DNA of 45,469 bases from Archangium sp. GTDB taxonomy: Bacteria; Myxococcota; Myxococcia; Myxococcales; Myxococcaceae. A model generated the notes under the pieces. That model ran no database searches, was not told where the DNA came from, and worked only from the letters and a program-made list of their open reading frames with translations. The DNA lies in NCBI GenBank assembly GCA_030695565.1, contig JAUYRZ010000080.1:1-45469 (forward strand), read 5' to 3'. Below are positions 2,659 to 9,969 of this stretch, piece after piece. The number at the start of each line of letters is the position of its first letter. Position 1 is the first letter of the stretch. A program made the position numbers and the translations under genes.

Positions 2659-3909
2659 ATGACTGCGCCGCCCCTCCGCGAAAAGGAAGCAGCTCGAACG
2701 CCGACCGTCGACGACGTCGAGTTCCGCGCGCTCTACAGGAAGACCAAGTACGTGGTGGAGACGGCCGACGGCTGGTCGTTGGTGATCACCCGCTACCGCC
2801 CGATTCCCCAGACCTTCGCGCAGCCGCTGTTCGGCGAACCGATGCTCTTGGTGCACGGCTTCTGTCAAAACCGGCACGCGTGGACGAGCGGCGAGTTCGT
2901 GAAGAACCTGCTGTTCTTCGGCATCGACATTCACATCCTCGAGCTGCGCGGCCACGGGAAGAGCTCCATCGAGCTGCAACACGAACGCGCCGCGAAGTTC
3001 GGCCGCAAGCCGCCCGCCGACATCGAGTGGGACTGGGACATCGACAGCTATTTTCTCTACGACCTTCCGGCGGCCGTGGCGGGCGTGCGGCGCATCACCC
3101 GGCGCGAGAAGATCTTCTATTGCGGCCACTCCATGGGTGGAATGCTCGGGTACGGCTACGCCGGCATTCACCAGGAGCAGCTCGAAGGCATCATCACCAT
3201 CGGCGCTCCGGCGGAGATCGGCAAAGGCAGCCTCGCGCTGCAGTTGCTCGCCTACGCAGGCCCGGGCATCAGCTCGTCGGTCGACGCGGCGCTGGGCAGC
3301 ATCAACCTGCAGCGCGGGGTGGGGCAGACGCTCTCGAAGTTCGCCTCTCGGTTCACCAAGCGGGTCGCCAACGAGGCGAAGAAGCCGCTCTCGTACCGCT
3401 ACTTGCCGTTGGATGACTGGCTCAAGGCCGCCTCTGATGCGTTGGGTTACGCGGAGCAGAGCCCGGTGCTCAGCCTGGTGGCCAACCGCATCACCTGGCT
3501 CACCCGGTGGGATCGCATGTCGATGTCGGACGTGCGCTGGCTCTTGAAAGAAGGCGGCGAGAAAGAGCCGCGCAAGGTGGTCGACCAGTTCCTGCGCTGG
3601 ATCCGCGGCATGGAGGTCGTCTGCTACCGCACGGGCTACGACTTTCAGCGCGGCTTCTCCAAGTTCAAGCTGCCCATGGCCATCATCTTCGGTGACATGG
3701 ATCCGCTCGCTTCCCTGGCCTCGACGCGCTCGGTCTATCGCGCGGCCAAGAGCGAGTACCTGCTCTGGCGCCCGGTGAAGGGCAACAGCCACATCGAGCT
3801 GACGATGGGGCACGACATCAGGCAGATCTGTTACGACATCAAGAACCTCATCGAGTACGCGAAGACACACCGCGCTCGATCGCCTTCGCTCCCCAGAGTT
3901 CAGGACTGA
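2659..3909 (+). CDS. Alpha/beta hydrolase
   Basis: 416 residues. The fold is clear: an oxyanion-hole strand (LLVHGFCQNRHAW, about 63-75), the turn LRGHGKSS, and the nucleophile elbow CGHSMGG with Ser158. A probable acid lies in FGDMDP (Asp346 or Asp348), and the histidine in GNSHIE (His378). The N-terminal YVVETADGWSLVITRYRP resembles the start of acid lipases. An unusually long segment between the elbow and the acid residue (about 200-340) would form the cap domain. No signal peptide is seen, so it is probably cytoplasmic. The substrate is unknown; a lipase/esterase or polyester-related hydrolase is plausible. It starts 16 bp after the HmuY-like gene and may be co-transcribed. Confidence 0.8.
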   Translation: MTAPPLREKEAARTPTVDDVEFRALYRKTKYVVETADGWSLVITRYRPIPQTFAQPLFGEPMLLVHGFCQNRHAWTSGEFVKNLLFFGIDIHILELRGHGKSSIELQHERAAKFGRKPPADIEWDWDIDSYFLYDLPAAVAGVRRITRREKIFYCGHSMGGMLGYGYAGIHQEQLEGIITIGAPAEIGKGSLALQLLAYAGPGISSSVDAALGSINLQRGVGQTLSKFASRFTKRVANEAKKPLSYRYLPLDDWLKAASDALGYAEQSPVLSLVANRITWLTRWDRMSMSDVRWLLKEGGEKEPRKVVDQFLRWIRGMEVVCYRTGYDFQRGFSKFKLPMAIIFGDMDPLASLASTRSVYRAAKSEYLLWRPVKGNSHIELTMGHDIRQICYDIKNLIEYAKTHRARSPSLPRVQD

Positions 3910-3974: not shown

Positions 3975-5714
3975 ATGACACAGCTCGGACATTCCAACCG
4001 GTGGCTCCCCCTGGCGTTGGCGTTCGTGCCTTTCGTGGTGCTCGCTCAGGATCGCGTTCAGCTCAACTCGATCACGAAGATCGAAGTGAAGGGCAACAAC
4101 GTGGAGATCACCGGCAGCCGCCGGCCGAACTTCACCACCTTCACGCTCTCCGATCCGCCGCGGCTGGTGATCGACATCTCGGAGGCGGTGTTCGCCGACG
4201 TGCCTAAGGAGCTGAAGGTCTCCGATGGAACGATCACCGCGATCAAGACGGCCAGCTACGGCTCGGAGTCGGCGGCGATCGCGCGCATCTTGATCGGCTT
4301 CGAGCACGAGCTGGAGACGGACATCGCCAGCACCGGTACCTCGTTGGTGGTGAAGCTGCCGGCCGACGCGAAGCAGCAGCAGAAGCTGATCGCCGAGAAG
4401 ATCGAGAGCGAGCGAGCGCTCAAGGCGCAGAAGGAGAGCGCAGAGAAGGCCCGCCTCGAGAAGGAGCGCGTCGAGCGTGACGAGAAGGAACGCCTGGCCA
4501 GGGCTGAAGCAGACAGGAAGCGGCTCGAGGCAGAAGAGGCGAAGCAGAAAGCCGACGAGGAGCGCCTCGCGAAGGCGGCTGCGGAGAAGCAGGCCAAAGA
4601 AGAGAAGGAGCGCGTGGCGCGTGAGGAGACCGCGAAGAAGCGTGAGGCCGAAGCGCTCGCGAAGAAGCAGGCCGAAGAAGAGCGCCTCGCCCGCGTCGCT
4701 GCCGAGAACGAAGAGAAGGAGCGCAAGCGCGAGGAGAAGGAAGCGCAGGCGCGCGCCGCGAAGGAGGAGGCCGATCGGAAGGCGAAGGAGCTGGCCGAAC
4801 TCAAGCGCAAGGAAGCCGACGCCCGGGAAGCGCGCCTGACCGCCGAGCGTGAAGAGAAAGAGCGCCAGGCCAGGGCAGAGGCGGATCGGAAGAAGGCCGA
4901 AGCCGAAGAGAAGGCAGCCCTTGCTCGCGCCGAGGCAGCGCGGAAGAAGCAGGCCCTCGCCGAGAAAGCAGAGGCCGAACGCGAGAAGAAGGAGCAGGAG
5001 CGGCTGGCGAAGGGGGATGCCGAGAAGGCGAAGGCGGAAGCAGAGCGCAAGGAACAGCTCGCCGCGCTCGAGGCCCGCACCCGCGCGGAAGACGAGAAGC
5101 GCCGCCGCATCGAAGAGGCCGCTGAAGCCAAGCGGCAGATCGAAGCCGACAAGAAGCGCACCGTCTCCGAACGCATCGCCTTCGCTCAGGCCGAGAAGGA
5201 GAAGAAGGCGGCCGCCGCTGAAGAAGAGAAACGCAGAGTGGCCGAAGAGCGCCGGCACGCGGAAGAGGCGAAGAAGCAGTCGGAGGCGCAGAGGCTCGCC
5301 GCGAAGGAAGAAGAACGCGCCCGCCGCCAGAAGGACCTCGAGGTCGCTTCGGCCAGGACCCCGTCACCTTCTGAGCTGGTCGCCTCCACCAAGCAGGCCC
5401 GCATGACCTTCGTGGGCTTCAAGCAACAAGAAGGCGTGGGGCGGATCTTCTTCCGGACCTCGTCTCCGGTTCACTATCGGGTGGGCGAAGAGAACGATCG
5501 CCAGGTGATCATCACCCTGGAGAACACCGAGATCAGCCTGCCCAACAACCAGCGCATCATCGACGCGTCGTTCTTCGACACGGCCGTCTCGCTGGTGCGC
5601 CCCGAGGAGCAGGGCAGCGGGGTGAAGGTCACCATCAGCCTCAAGCAGGCCGTCGCCTATCGCGCGAGCCAGGCCGGCAATGAGCTGACGCTGGAATTCG
5701 AACGCCCCGAGTGA
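3975..5714 (+). CDS. AMIN-domain envelope protein with long charged helix
   Basis: 579 residues from ATG at 3975; an in-frame TTG at 3957 would only extend the N-terminus. Residues 1-26 form a signal peptide ending LA before Gln. Residues about 30-125 resemble an AMIN domain (ITKIEVKGNNVEITGS, PPRLVIDIS, ARILIGFE). Residues about 132-455 are an almost unbroken run of Lys, Glu, Arg and Ala, typical of a single alpha helix or a TolA-like helix. Residues about 474-579 form a second AMIN-like beta domain (MTFVGFKQQEGVGRIFFRTS, VIITLENTEISL, VTISLKQAVAY). AMIN domains bind peptidoglycan or secretins. A 320-residue straight helix would be about 48 nm. The gene ends 15 bp before lptD, suggesting an operon and an envelope role; the function is unknown. 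Confidence 0.72.
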   Translation: MTQLGHSNRWLPLALAFVPFVVLAQDRVQLNSITKIEVKGNNVEITGSRRPNFTTFTLSDPPRLVIDISEAVFADVPKELKVSDGTITAIKTASYGSESAAIARILIGFEHELETDIASTGTSLVVKLPADAKQQQKLIAEKIESERALKAQKESAEKARLEKERVERDEKERLARAEADRKRLEAEEAKQKADEERLAKAAAEKQAKEEKERVAREETAKKREAEALAKKQAEEERLARVAAENEEKERKREEKEAQARAAKEEADRKAKELAELKRKEADAREARLTAEREEKERQARAEADRKKAEAEEKAALARAEAARKKQALAEKAEAEREKKEQERLAKGDAEKAKAEAERKEQLAALEARTRAEDEKRRRIEEAAEAKRQIEADKKRTVSERIAFAQAEKEKKAAAAEEEKRRVAEERRHAEEAKKQSEAQRLAAKEEERARRQKDLEVASARTPSPSELVASTKQARMTFVGFKQQEGVGRIFFRTSSPVHYRVGEENDRQVIITLENTEISLPNNQRIIDASFFDTAVSLVRPEEQGSGVKVTISLKQAVAYRASQAGNELTLEFERPE

Positions 5715-5729
5715 CACAAACGCCCGGGC

Positions 5730-8288
5730 ATGCTCGGGCTGTGGGTGGCACTCGTGTTGATGGCGCCGCCGGAGACGGTGGAGATCCAGCTGAACGCCGA
5801 GCGGATGCTGCACGACGGTCAGAAGGACCTGACCACCGCTGAAGGCCGGGCGAAGCTGGTGACCGAGGGCGCGGCCATCAACGCCGATCGCATCGTCTAC
5901 GACCGCAACCGCAACGTGGCCACCGCGACCGGGCACGTGGTCGCGCGCATGACGCAGGGCGGGCGCATGGTGGTGATCGCCGACCTGATGACCCTGCGCT
6001 TCGACGACCAGCAGCAGGTCAAGGAGGTGTTCCTCTACGACGGGCAGGCGCTCTCGAAGAAAGACGTGAGCGCAGATGCCTTGCTGGCCGCGGAGACCGC
6101 GGAGGCCGCGAAGAAGGTGGGCGTCACCCAGGCGCTCCTTCAGGGAAATCACCTGGTGCGCGATGGCACCCGGTGGGCCGTCGATGAGCTCGAGCTGGTG
6201 CCCTGCGAGTGTGATTTCGAGAACCCCTCGTGGTCGATCACCACCAGCTCGGCCATCATCGATACCGAGGCAGAGCGGGTCTCGGTCACCAGCCCCGTGT
6301 TTCGCGTGAAACACATTCCGGTGTTGTGGTTGCCGTGGCTGTCGTTGCCGCTGACGGATCGACAGAGTGGGCTGCTGTTCACGCGGCCCAACTTCTCGCC
6401 GCTCAATGGCTTCAGCCTCGAGCAGCCGGTGTTCTTCACGCTCGGTCGAAGTGCAGACATCACCGTCACGCCCGGCTTCTTCACGGGCAGTCCGGGCGTG
6501 GGTCGCGCGGGGGTGACCGGCGGCCCCACCGCCACCGGAGTCGCGGGACCCAAGCTCGCGGCTGAGTTCCGGTACACGCCCTCGAGCCGCGCGTCGGGTC
6601 GTTTGTTGGCCGGTGTGCTCTACGACTTCCGCAGCAAGCGCGACGTGCAGGTCGCGACGCTCCGTGATCCCTCGGGTGCGCCGCGCGGGCTGCGCGGTGA
6701 GCTGGGGTGGCAACACACGCAAGACTTCGACAAGGGCTTCGGGACGCGCGTCGATCTGAACGTGCACTCTGATGGCGACTACAACCGCGACCTCACCGTC
6801 GACATCATCGCGAGTGCAGCCACGTATCTGCGGAGCACGGCCAGTGTGTTCCACCGCGGCGACGATCACTACGTAGGGCTCGATGTCGGCCTTCGACAGG
6901 ACATTCAATACGGCTACGACCTGATCGGGCGCGGCACGCTGATCAACACGGTGGAGGGCAATACGGCAGGGCGAGACCCCGTCGTTCCGTTGGCGACTCG
7001 GCCCGTCGGAAGGTTTGGCCCGGGCACGCTTCAACGACTGCCGGCGGTCACCTTCGGCTGGGCGCCGACCAGGCTGCTCGGGCCTCTTCGCTTCGATGTC
7101 GAAGGTGACGCGGTGCGCTTGGCGCCGTTGTTTTCCAAGACGGGCGATGAAGGCGCGGCGGCAGCCGAGGGGGCGGTGCTGAGCGAGACGTTCGGGACCG
7201 CGGTCGAGCGGCTCTTCAGCCCCAGTCCGTCCGGCCCGCCAGGGGGCACTCGCGAAGGCGTCGGCGATCGCATCTGGCAGCCGGGCGAGCGGCAAGGGCG
7301 CGACCGGTTGATGGTCCTGCCGCGCATCTCTCTGGCGGCTCAGCCGCTCGGTGCATTGTCGGTGAGCGCGTTCGTGGCGTGGCGTCAGCTGGCCTGGGTG
7401 GGCGAGCAGACCGGTGACACCTGGAGCCGCGGCTATCTGGTTGCCGGCGGGCGCCTCGAGACCGAGCTCTCCCGCACGTTCGGATCGTTGCGGCATGTGA
7501 TCCAGCCGCTCGCGGAGTTGCGCGCCATTCCGATCGGGCACGAGGGGAAATCAGACGCCGCTTTCGTTCCCTACGACGCGGTCGACGCGGCGGTGCCTGG
7601 AGTGACGCCGCGTTTTCAAGGCGTGATCGAGCTTCGCCAGCGGCTGGTGGCCCGTGATGGCACCGAGGTGCTGCGCCTCGACGTGGGGCAGGGCTTCGAA
7701 GCGAGTGGGGCGACGTACAAGGATGTCACTCCGACCGTGGGTGAGAGCTTCGGCCGGCTGGGCACCCGCATCGGTTGGTTCTCGGCGCAGGGCATTCTGA
7801 GGCTCGACCCGATCCCCAAACGTTTTGCCGTCGTTCCCCTCGAGCCGGAGATCACCGTGACTCGCGCCGCCGGCCGGGCCGAGCTCAGCGATGGCCGTCA
7901 CGGCGCCTACGTCGGCTACGAACAGCTGCTGATGGAGGGCACCGCGCGATCCCGCCAGCCCATCGATCTGCTGTTCTTGATCGATCGTGGCTACACCTCA
8001 GCGACTCGGGTGCGGCAGCTGACCTTCGGCGCCTTCTGGGACTTCGGGCCGATCAGCCTCCGCTATGACGCGCTGGTCGCGGAGGCGGTGATCAAGCCTG
8101 TCGTCGAACCGCAGTTCGCGTTCGCCCAGCACAGCGCTGGCATCGGCATCTCGCCGGCGTGCGATTGCTGGCGGGTTGACGTGGTGGCCACTCAACCGAT
8201 TCCGACGGACGGGGTGACGCCGTTGAAGTTTCCCCAGCTTGGCTTCAACGTGACCATCTCCAAGTTCGGCACGATCGGGTCCCGGTAA
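5730..8288 (+). CDS. lptD: LPS-assembly protein LptD
   Basis: 852 residues, in the normal range for LptD. LptD is the outer membrane barrel that, plugged by LptE, inserts lipopolysaccharide into the outer leaflet. A short signal-like N-terminus is followed by an OstA/LptA-like beta-jellyroll (about 20-160: AERMLHDGQKD, TEGAAINADRIVYDRNRNVATATGHV). The barrel domain begins with the typical HIPVLWLPWLSLPL and RQSGLLFTRPNFSPLNGFSLEQPVF (about 193-235). The protein has exactly four cysteines, as two CxC pairs: Cys159/Cys161 and Cys811/Cys813. They are placed to link the periplasmic domain with the barrel, as the E. coli disulfides do. The gene follows the AMIN-domain gene by 15 bp. Its start is supported by operon spacing rather than a strong ribosome site. 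Confidence 0.88.
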   Translation: MLGLWVALVLMAPPETVEIQLNAERMLHDGQKDLTTAEGRAKLVTEGAAINADRIVYDRNRNVATATGHVVARMTQGGRMVVIADLMTLRFDDQQQVKEVFLYDGQALSKKDVSADALLAAETAEAAKKVGVTQALLQGNHLVRDGTRWAVDELELVPCECDFENPSWSITTSSAIIDTEAERVSVTSPVFRVKHIPVLWLPWLSLPLTDRQSGLLFTRPNFSPLNGFSLEQPVFFTLGRSADITVTPGFFTGSPGVGRAGVTGGPTATGVAGPKLAAEFRYTPSSRASGRLLAGVLYDFRSKRDVQVATLRDPSGAPRGLRGELGWQHTQDFDKGFGTRVDLNVHSDGDYNRDLTVDIIASAATYLRSTASVFHRGDDHYVGLDVGLRQDIQYGYDLIGRGTLINTVEGNTAGRDPVVPLATRPVGRFGPGTLQRLPAVTFGWAPTRLLGPLRFDVEGDAVRLAPLFSKTGDEGAAAAEGAVLSETFGTAVERLFSPSPSGPPGGTREGVGDRIWQPGERQGRDRLMVLPRISLAAQPLGALSVSAFVAWRQLAWVGEQTGDTWSRGYLVAGGRLETELSRTFGSLRHVIQPLAELRAIPIGHEGKSDAAFVPYDAVDAAVPGVTPRFQGVIELRQRLVARDGTEVLRLDVGQGFEASGATYKDVTPTVGESFGRLGTRIGWFSAQGILRLDPIPKRFAVVPLEPEITVTRAAGRAELSDGRHGAYVGYEQLLMEGTARSRQPIDLLFLIDRGYTSATRVRQLTFGAFWDFGPISLRYDALVAEAVIKPVVEPQFAFAQHSAGIGISPACDCWRVDVVATQPIPTDGVTPLKFPQLGFNVTISKFGTIGSR

Positions 8289-8361
8289 GCCTTGACCGGG
8301 GGGGGGCATGCTTCGAGAATGCGCCCCTGTTTTCCCTCGCAGAGTCAGGGAGTCGAAGCGA

Positions 8362-9969
8362 ATGCGCATGCGCCTGAAGGTGCTGGTCGGTCTGATGTCT
8401 GTCTGTCTGCTCCCGGCGTGTGGGGGCTCGGCTGGTCCCGCGTCGATGGAATACGTCGAGGTGCTGCCGGCCCAGCCGAAGATCGGCGATGTGGCGACGG
8501 TGCGCTTCAAGTTGCTCGATGAGCGCAGCATTCCGCTCGCAGGCGCCACGGTCGAGTTCAAGCTCGAGTCCGCCAACAGCGGCGTGACGCTCAGCCCTCC
8601 CACGGCCGTCTCGATTCGAGGCAGCGGCTACGCGGAGACCCAGGTCATCGCCAGCTCGCGCGTGAACTCGGTCATCGTGTCGGCCACCTCCGGCGGCAAG
8701 AAGGTGTTCTCGCCGCCCATCACCTTCGCCGGCTCCGTGCCCAGCGGCCGCCAGTTGACCTTCCAGTGCGGCCCCATCGCAGGTGATGGCTCGGGTGGGC
8801 GTCACGCCATCGGTGCGTTCGATGGCACCCGCCACCTGATCGCCGGCTCGCAGCTCGACTGCACCGCCCACGTCGGCGATCGCAACGGCGATGGCGTGGC
8901 CGACGCTCTGGTGTCCTTCATGACGGAAGCCGGCACCATCGGCGCGACCGGCCTCTCCAAGGCTGACCTCGTGGGTGATGCGACGGTGGTCTACAAGACC
9001 TCATTGCCGTTGCCCGAAGACGTGATTCCCGACGTCTTCAAGTGGACGACCGCGGTCGACGACGTGTCGAACACCGGCGAGTACCTCGCCCCGTTGTGGA
9101 TGCACCCGTACGAGTGGGTCGAAGATCCGCGCACGCTGGCTTTCTCGGCCAACCCCTTCACGTACACCCTGCGTGAGCCGCGCCGCCCCGACCCCATCCG
9201 CCTCAAGATGGATGGCAGCGGCCGCTACGAGAACAACCCGCGCGACAACCTGGTGAGCATGATCGCCATCACCTCAGGTGAAGAGGGCTTCGACGACACG
9301 AACAACAATGGCCAGTACGACGAAGGCGAAGACTACGACGACCTCACCGAGCCCTTCGTCGACTCCAACGACAACGGCACGTGGGACTCGAACGAGCGCT
9401 TCATCGACGTGAACGGCAACCGCGATTGGAACGGCAAGAACGGCAAGTGGGACGCGAACACGCTCATCTGGAAGCAGGAGCGCATTCTGTGGACGGGCGT
9501 GCCCGCGACCGAAGACACCAGGCCGGTGGTGCCCGGGGTGATCGGCCACCGCCCCGTCTTCGCCCCGATCACCCAGATGGGTGCGATCAACCTGGTGTGT
9601 GGCGGCTCGCCTTGCACGGCGGCAGGCCCAGAGCAGTACGTCGCCGCCTATCTGGCCGATCCCTGGTTCAACTCGTTGGCTCAGAACGGAGACTCCGACA
9701 AGTGCGAGATCGACACCGAGGACAGATCGCCGGTCGTCGCCAAGGTCGAGTCGGGCTCTGGTTTCGCGTTCACCTACCCACCGGGCCGCTACCTGCTCTT
9801 CACCGTCAGAGACGCGCGTGATCCCAACGCGTCGCCGCTCGAACAGATCCCGCGCCGCATTCCAGCCATCCCCTTCCGTGCGACGATCGGCTGCACGTAC
9901 ACCTCGGCGCCGAAGGCGTCGTACATCCTGAAGATCGCCGTCGGCAGCATCACCGGCACCATCGAGTGA
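8362..9969 (+). CDS. Large lipoprotein with Ig-like and calcium-loop-like motifs
   Basis: 535 residues from ATG at 8362, chosen because MRMRLKVLVGLMSVCLLPAC is a full lipoprotein signal with Cys20 as the lipidation site. An AGGGA ribosome-site-like sequence lies upstream. Residues about 30-130 look like a bacterial Ig-like domain (VRFKLLDERSIPLAGATVEFKLES, YAETQVIAS). A second such segment with DRNGDGVADALVSF lies near 170-200. Around 312-368 there are consecutive Asp/Asn-rich loops (DTNNNGQYDEGED, DSNDNGTWDSNERF, DVNGNRDWNGKNGKWD) that resemble EF-hand or dockerin calcium loops. Four later cysteines may form disulfides. Anchored to the outer membrane or surface; function unknown. It begins 73 bp after lptD and may share its transcript. 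Confidence 0.72.
   Translation: MRMRLKVLVGLMSVCLLPACGGSAGPASMEYVEVLPAQPKIGDVATVRFKLLDERSIPLAGATVEFKLESANSGVTLSPPTAVSIRGSGYAETQVIASSRVNSVIVSATSGGKKVFSPPITFAGSVPSGRQLTFQCGPIAGDGSGGRHAIGAFDGTRHLIAGSQLDCTAHVGDRNGDGVADALVSFMTEAGTIGATGLSKADLVGDATVVYKTSLPLPEDVIPDVFKWTTAVDDVSNTGEYLAPLWMHPYEWVEDPRTLAFSANPFTYTLREPRRPDPIRLKMDGSGRYENNPRDNLVSMIAITSGEEGFDDTNNNGQYDEGEDYDDLTEPFVDSNDNGTWDSNERFIDVNGNRDWNGKNGKWDANTLIWKQERILWTGVPATEDTRPVVPGVIGHRPVFAPITQMGAINLVCGGSPCTAAGPEQYVAAYLADPWFNSLAQNGDSDKCEIDTEDRSPVVAKVESGSGFAFTYPPGRYLLFTVRDARDPNASPLEQIPRRIPAIPFRATIGCTYTSAPKASYILKIAVGSITGTIE

Follow-up and report, generated by a model that had tools for sequence, protein, structure and literature searches.

A double-AMIN protein with a long charged linker encoded next to lptD in Myxococcota

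The way in which outer-membrane channels, or the outer membrane as such, are kept in place against the cell wall is to our knowledge poorly known beyond the Proteobacteria. Among the closest described counterparts of the protein considered here is the pilus secretin PilQ, for which the binding of peptidoglycan by AMIN fragments was reported (available part of PMC5285504) and for which, in M. xanthus, the AMIN domains were described as being required for polar recruitment (available part of PMC10653833). A precedent of a different kind comes from TolA and TonB, the middle domains of which were reported to interchange between helical and proline-rich kinds in the course of evolution (excerpt of PMC12204202). 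For the M. xanthus periplasm a mean width of 32.7 nm was given, with 33 of 34 further species ranging from 21 to 44 nm (excerpt of PMC9603273). Among open-licence PMC papers none was found that joins an AMIN domain with LptD, and the papers of this collection listed for M. xanthus LptD, AMIN domains and single alpha-helices yielded, going by their titles and the beginnings of their abstracts, nothing on such a protein; a preliminary description of the locus had likewise named no system of such make-up as known to it. The gene in question lies in a window of 45,469 nucleotides (the whole stretch of DNA that was analysed, contig JAUYRZ010000080.1 of Archangium sp., assembly GCA_030695565.1), the host genome comprising 8.5 Mb in 134 contigs (Table 1).

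Table 1. Features at and around the gene of the AMIN protein; positions are those of the window.
Feature	Position	Strand	Remarks
Alpha/beta hydrolase	2659..3909	+	Upstream neighbour; also recurrent at numerous loci within the family and the order
AMIN - long helix - AMIN protein gene	3975..5714	+	579 aa; ATG at 3975, stop at 5712-5714
Signal peptide-like N-terminus, residues 1-25	3975..4049	+	Without Cys; read by eye
AMIN1, residues 26-133	4050..4373	+	AmiC / PilQ-AMIN1 class; PF11741 on the domain alone 35.4 bits at 4086-4352 (Pfam cut-off 20.5 bits)
K/E/R/A stretch, residues 134-455	4374..5339	+	Single-alpha-helix charge pattern
Possible rod hinge, residues 387-397	5133..5165	+	10-residue pLDDT means 48 and 46
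AMIN2, residues about 470-579	5382..5711	+	Class of the last PilQ AMIN; PF11741 on the domain alone 39.3 bits at 5418-5684 (Pfam cut-off 20.5 bits)
Spacer, 15 bp	5715..5729	+	AMIN gene and lptD share one frame
lptD, LPS assembly beta-barrel, 852 aa	5730..8288	+	PF04453, 7.2e-8
Lipoprotein-like protein (by eye)	8308..9969	+	Big_1 match 33.6 bits, just below the cut-off of 34.9

Two AMIN domains around a charged linker

The preliminary description had proposed two AMIN-type domains flanking a Lys/Glu/Arg/Ala stretch, encoded 15 bp ahead of lptD, and these elements were all recovered: the gap is of exactly this length, and over its full length the protein has a PF11741 match of 3e-18 with two stretches, each of which exceeds the Pfam cut-off when searched alone. 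Structure prediction, which had been proposed as a check, gave both AMIN folds, the second one included, together with long helices, whereby the AlphaFold2 model (19 orthologues) has 10-residue pLDDT means of 82-94 in AMIN1 and AMIN2. The AMIN beta-sandwich fold was recognised both in this model and by Foldseek, the four best PDB matches of which were PilQ three times (3jc8, 4aqz, 4av2) and AmiC (4bin, rank 4, E 1.4e-3). Over its full length the model reached a mean pLDDT of 75.2 and a pTM of 0.30, and because of the latter value the placement of the domains relative to each other is undefined. As the N-terminal signal lacks a cysteine, the AMIN protein is probably soluble and periplasmic.

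The two domains were found to belong to different AMIN classes. On PDB sequences the AMIN1 profile finds AmiC (4bin, 2e-8) and PilQ (3jc8, 1.7e-22), and the AMIN2 profile does not find AmiC at E up to 1. On PilQ proteins, AMIN1 scored 61-79 bits with PilQ AMIN-1 (seven PilQs) and AMIN2 33-41 bits with the last PilQ AMIN (nine PilQs). A domain tree of 73 rows and 110 columns, built from 27 chosen loci and nine PilQs, splits AMIN2 and PilQ-AMIN3 from AMIN1 and PilQ-AMIN1/2 with a starred SH-aLRT value of 99, obtained by a quick method on few columns; PilQ-AMIN3 is located on a long branch inside the AMIN2 rows, and the tree is compatible with either direction of descent. Such similarities suggest that the AMIN protein and the PilQ AMIN array have a common ancestry, the two domains of the former matching the first and the last of the array in order. 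A secretin domain was not matched by Pfam in the AMIN protein at E up to 1.

The stretch between the domains had been described as about 320 nearly pure Lys/Glu/Arg/Ala residues, which is borne out: its 322 residues (134-455) consist of 24.8% E, 24.2% A, 15.8% K and 14.3% R, i.e., 79% K+E+R+A, and residues 134-460 comprise 97 K+R and 91 E+D with one Gly and zero Pro. At the i,i+4 spacing, 97 pairs of opposite sign and 8 of the same sign were counted, whereas 2000 shuffled linkers gave 53.7 +/- 5.6 and 53.5 +/- 5.6, respectively (largest opposite count 73, smallest same count 34). Opposite charges at i,i+4, the lack of Pro and the near lack of Gly are all found in the linker, and this pattern is, at the level of sequence, the mark of an ER/K single alpha-helix. 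A coiled coil is disfavoured, as the strongest periods of the AILMVF residues in the linker include none near 3.5; ILMVF alone give a weak period of 3.55 (power 4.0). Recent tandem expansion at the DNA level was rejected, with just three arrays of about two copies being present.

An alpha-helix rises by 0.15 nm per residue, and 322 residues add up to about 48 nm. AlphaFold2 places helices at residues 132-386 and 398-461, with pLDDT below 50 at 388-396; of the two rods that result, one measures about 38 nm and the other about 10 nm. The previously proposed helix near 48 nm consequently holds as a sum, and the model breaks it into two. Its proposed excess over the periplasm holds for M. xanthus, as the longer modelled rod alone surpasses 32.7 nm, and a straight rod of about 48 nm could not stand upright in the M. 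xanthus periplasm as given in the excerpt of PMC9603273.

Linkage to lptD and variation among relatives

In a set of 179 genomes of the phylum Myxococcota (completeness >= 80%), the AMIN2 profile matched 164 (E <= 1e-3, whereby weak matches may be PilQ) and a custom LptD profile 160 (E <= 1e-10), Pfam LptD matching 97. The linkage count drew on 149 (AMIN2) and 148 (LptD) genomes among the matches listed, and AMIN2 was found upstream of lptD, on the same strand and within 4 kb, in 128 of the 140 genomes with both; among the same matches listed, the distance is within 400 bp in 126 of the 128 linked genomes, with a median of 73 bp between matches. Counting with Pfam LptD gives 85 of 94. The linkage is real and old, and the neighbourhood with lptD, for which conservation across the phylum had been named as a check, is indeed conserved. 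In the family, the order hydrolase, AMIN gene, lptD, Big_1-like protein, TetR and enoyl-CoA hydratase recurs at many loci, the lipoprotein-like gene of the window being the downstream neighbour at many of them. Several far families have a protein of AMIN2 alone ahead of lptD, with the order folC-like, AMIN2, lptD in G161; folC-like ligases were seen by eye upstream in 4 of 8 far loci (G161, G073, G178, G170), and in G044 the upstream folC-like ligase has Mur-ligase domains.

The 12 unlinked genomes of the 140, again among the matches listed, are five of genus g8, four of family f3 (G037, G044, G053, G056), G157 and finally G066 and G094, in both of which the AMIN match lies close to the end of a contig. 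Within g8, lptD lies away from the AMIN gene in five of six genomes (G032, G095-G098), in open frames of 807-830 aa, and at the loci read (G032, G095, G096, G098) the AMIN gene adjoins the hydrolase with no full lptD after it, a leftover fragment at the G032 locus matching lptD at 1e-6. At each of the four f3 loci the AMIN gene is followed by a Tad-type operon, comprising a secretin (PF00263 and PF13629) and FHA-T2SSE as well as, in three of the four, Peptidase_A24 (prepilin peptidase), as identified by Pfam at L065 and L083 and by eye at L072 and L080. This distribution suggests that the gene order is old and that in g8, in f3 and in the LPS-less hosts treated below lptD dropped out and the AMIN gene stayed.

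Some further observations concern the lptD side of the locus. From the AMIN stop to lptD (window 5711-5730) one frame runs on without an intervening stop in 30 of 70 linked loci, and the frame offset between both genes is 0 in 37 of the 70; as the loci are related, the shared frame may mean little. The window lptD encodes two CxC motifs (PCECDF, PACDCW), and in an alignment of 25 LptDs the cysteines of the first pair and a single C-terminal one are invariant. In addition to a linked lptD, G013 has a second LptD-like gene in an open frame of 1189 aa.

Sorting of 86 relatives gave 61 two-AMIN proteins, 15 cut by contig ends, which were excluded from the linker statistics, and 10 called AMIN2-only, of which L089 was removed as a divergent AMIN1 is visible by eye; together with G161 and G178 the remaining nine make 11 AMIN2-only proteins. 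As the relatives were all recruited with AMIN2 queries, the universal presence of AMIN2 is partly by construction, and AMIN1-only relatives would be missed outside the window's own genome, in which a search with the AMIN1 profile matched the AMIN protein and a PilQ-like protein only. The AMIN gene is usually single copy, G151 having two. An Archangium MAG is the closest named relative (98% identity over AMIN2), and the 24 loci of the closer named-organism alignment are all from Myxococcales, Myxococcaceae, Archangium(-aceae), Myxococcus or Citreicoccus; the name Myxococcota for the phylum of the genome set follows from such titles.

Across the 61 two-AMIN proteins the linker measures 49-441 aa (median 252), which rules out a fixed-length ruler, and is of the charged-helix or the Pro-rich kind. 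In family f1 all 28 two-AMIN rows are K/E/R/A-rich (0.63-0.84) with Pro+Gly <= 0.10, and beyond f1 helix-type linkers are found as well as Pro-rich ones. An LptD tree was built with 57 rows (58 chosen loci, L049 being too short), to which the labels helix, Pro-rich, mixed and AMIN2-only were assigned by hand; on this tree helix and Pro-rich switch at least 5 times among the two-AMIN rows and AMIN2-only twice; the starred branches alone force 3-4 helix/Pro-rich switches. The labels are clustered on this tree, 0 of 500 shuffles being as low (helix, Pro-rich and AMIN2-only groups). The linker has 44-76% identity in the five relatives that were compared, with 58-97% for the AMIN domains, and falls below either AMIN in all five. 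Given the spread of lengths and the Pro-rich cases, the exact length of the helix cannot matter much, and the linker, as its sequence variation indicates, is a spacer and not a ruler, varying as in TolA and TonB.

Relation to LPS export and likely function

Six genomes (G169, G170-G173, G178; 92-100% complete) were found to be without an LptD match, without LpxC (0/6) and without LptF/G over the cut-off (0/6, with one weak match of 9.5e-4 in G178), Omp85 being present in 6/6; these absences come from profile searches, and the genomes may be incomplete. Each of the six encodes AMIN2 as a stand-alone protein (E 2.5e-30 to 1.2e-19). Omp85-bearing genomes without LpxC and LptF/G are apparently diderm without LPS, and G168, G162, G163 and G166 were also seen to have Omp85, no LpxC match and no LptF/G over the cut-off. 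Eight genomes (G024, G048, G049, G091, G092, G148, G149, G156; 81-99% complete) have LptD without an AMIN2 match, and the AMIN protein and LPS export are separable in both directions. A stand-in for LptE was rejected because LptE (PF04390) was found in 116 of 179 genomes, among them that of the window, where it is on another contig (G000:C72:77933).

The reading we prefer, at a probability of roughly 0.45, is that the AMIN protein is a secreted, wall-binding periplasmic bridge, kin to the PilQ array, which serves general envelope organisation without a strict need for LPS. Following export, the signal would be cleaved; AMIN1 may then grip peptidoglycan, by analogy with the AmiC/PilQ-AMIN1 class, the charged single helix would, going by its pattern and the model, provide a reach of tens of nanometres, and AMIN2 would engage a second site, be it an outer-membrane-side assembly or another wall site. 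As the length of the helix exceeds the width of the M. xanthus periplasm, the rod would have to run parallel to the wall or be bent around residue 390 if the host periplasm is alike. The lptD neighbour would represent old synteny. The retention of the AMIN protein in apparently LPS-less relatives makes a general wall-to-envelope bridge likelier than a part of the export machine, and such a bridge is the best fit to the LPS-less hosts and the displaced loci. However, a linkage with lptD seen in 128 of the 140 genomes, among the matches listed, exceeds the need of a general brace, and the 11 AMIN2-only forms cannot be two-ended bridges.

The preliminary description had proposed a tether from peptidoglycan to the LPS export machine or a brace of the envelope. 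The AmiC/PilQ-AMIN1 class of AMIN1 makes it plausible that one end binds the wall, and of the two proposals the brace is favoured. The export tether has been weakened, since the AMIN protein is kept in six genomes without LpxC/LptD match or LptF/G over the cut-off, stays where lptD has left the locus (g8) and precedes a Tad-type secretin operon in four f3 genomes, and since eight genomes have LptD without an AMIN2 match. Its stricter form, a wall anchor dedicated to LptD, assumes AMIN2 to dock at the periplasmic side of LptD and AMIN1 to sit on peptidoglycan with the helix between, translocons thus being positioned like PilQ. This is the best fit to the linkage, as 128 of 140 genomes (among the matches listed) have AMIN2 ahead of a same-strand lptD at a median of 73 bp, AMIN2-alone proteins keep this place in several far families, and PilQ sets the precedent of AMIN domains placing an outer-membrane channel; it is a poor fit to the six genomes that keep the protein without LpxC/LptD match or LptF/G over the cut-off, to its displacement from lptD in five of six g8 and four f3 genomes and to the eight genomes named above, and we consider it rather unlikely. 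A model of AMIN2 fused to LptD (10 sequences; pLDDT 65.7, pTM 0.43), being without an interface measure, is silent on docking.

In a peptidoglycan cross-brace, both AMIN domains would sit on glycan strands, with the rod connecting strands that are far apart within the wall plane and lptD being merely a co-transcribed neighbour. That both domains are AMIN, that the rod's length exceeds the width of the M. xanthus periplasm (excerpt of PMC9603273) and that copies also occur unlinked and in LPS-less hosts agrees with this idea, but a two-ended brace explains neither the distinct class of AMIN2 (the starred 99 split) nor its occurrence alone in 11 proteins, which renders it improbable. A role as a helper of pilus secretins, be it PilQ or Tad, in their assembly at the wall would account for domains that map in order onto PilQ AMIN-1 and AMIN-3 and for the Tad-type secretin and FHA-ATPase after the gene in four f3 genomes; yet lptD is the usual next gene, the best Tad-secretin match of the window genome is on another contig, > 75 kb from any AMIN match, and G178 has the protein without a PilQ-like second match, so that this role appears very improbable. 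A further reading, doubtful as we regard it, would be a widespread and apparently undescribed wall-anchoring module, namely a secretin-less PilQ-type AMIN array on a single-alpha-helix rod, which positions outer-membrane machines, mostly LptD and in one family a Tad secretin. One conserved gene is present in most of the searched genomes of the phylum, and its naturally occurring forms, be it with AMIN2 alone, with either kind of linker, in LPS-less hosts or at displaced loci, render wall binding, reach and the choice of partner directly testable in cultured Myxococcaceae; a conserved linkage with lptD need not imply a role in LPS export.

Comparison with known systems

In the genome of the window two further proteins (G000 C100:91647-91874, L093; C112:174068-174250, L094) combine a PilZ domain with a C-terminal AMIN, a membrane-helix-like stretch being seen by eye between them, and possibly represent a cytoplasm-to-wall signalling design. 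With LptE and the Lpt machinery the AMIN protein has in common that it is a conserved genomic neighbour of lptD; it occurs, however, without Lpt matches, and LptE is its own gene elsewhere. TolA and TonB resemble it by a charged-helix or Pro-rich spacer between two ends (excerpt of PMC12204202), but they possess an inner-membrane anchor where the AMIN protein has a signal peptide (by eye), and the latter has AMIN at both ends and no Pfam match to a TolA/TonB domain, the C-terminal one included. AmiC, an N-acetylmuramoyl-L-alanine amidase (4bin), shares an AMIN domain of the AMIN1 class, whereas the AMIN protein has no amidase domain match. The PilQ proteins of M. xanthus (3jc8) and N. meningitidis (4aqz, 4av2) differ in that the AMIN protein is separate, soluble-looking and without a secretin domain match, and in that a long helix or other linker takes the place of the middle PilQ AMIN; what both have in common is the N-terminal AMIN array of PilQ, the first and last AMIN of which are matched in order.
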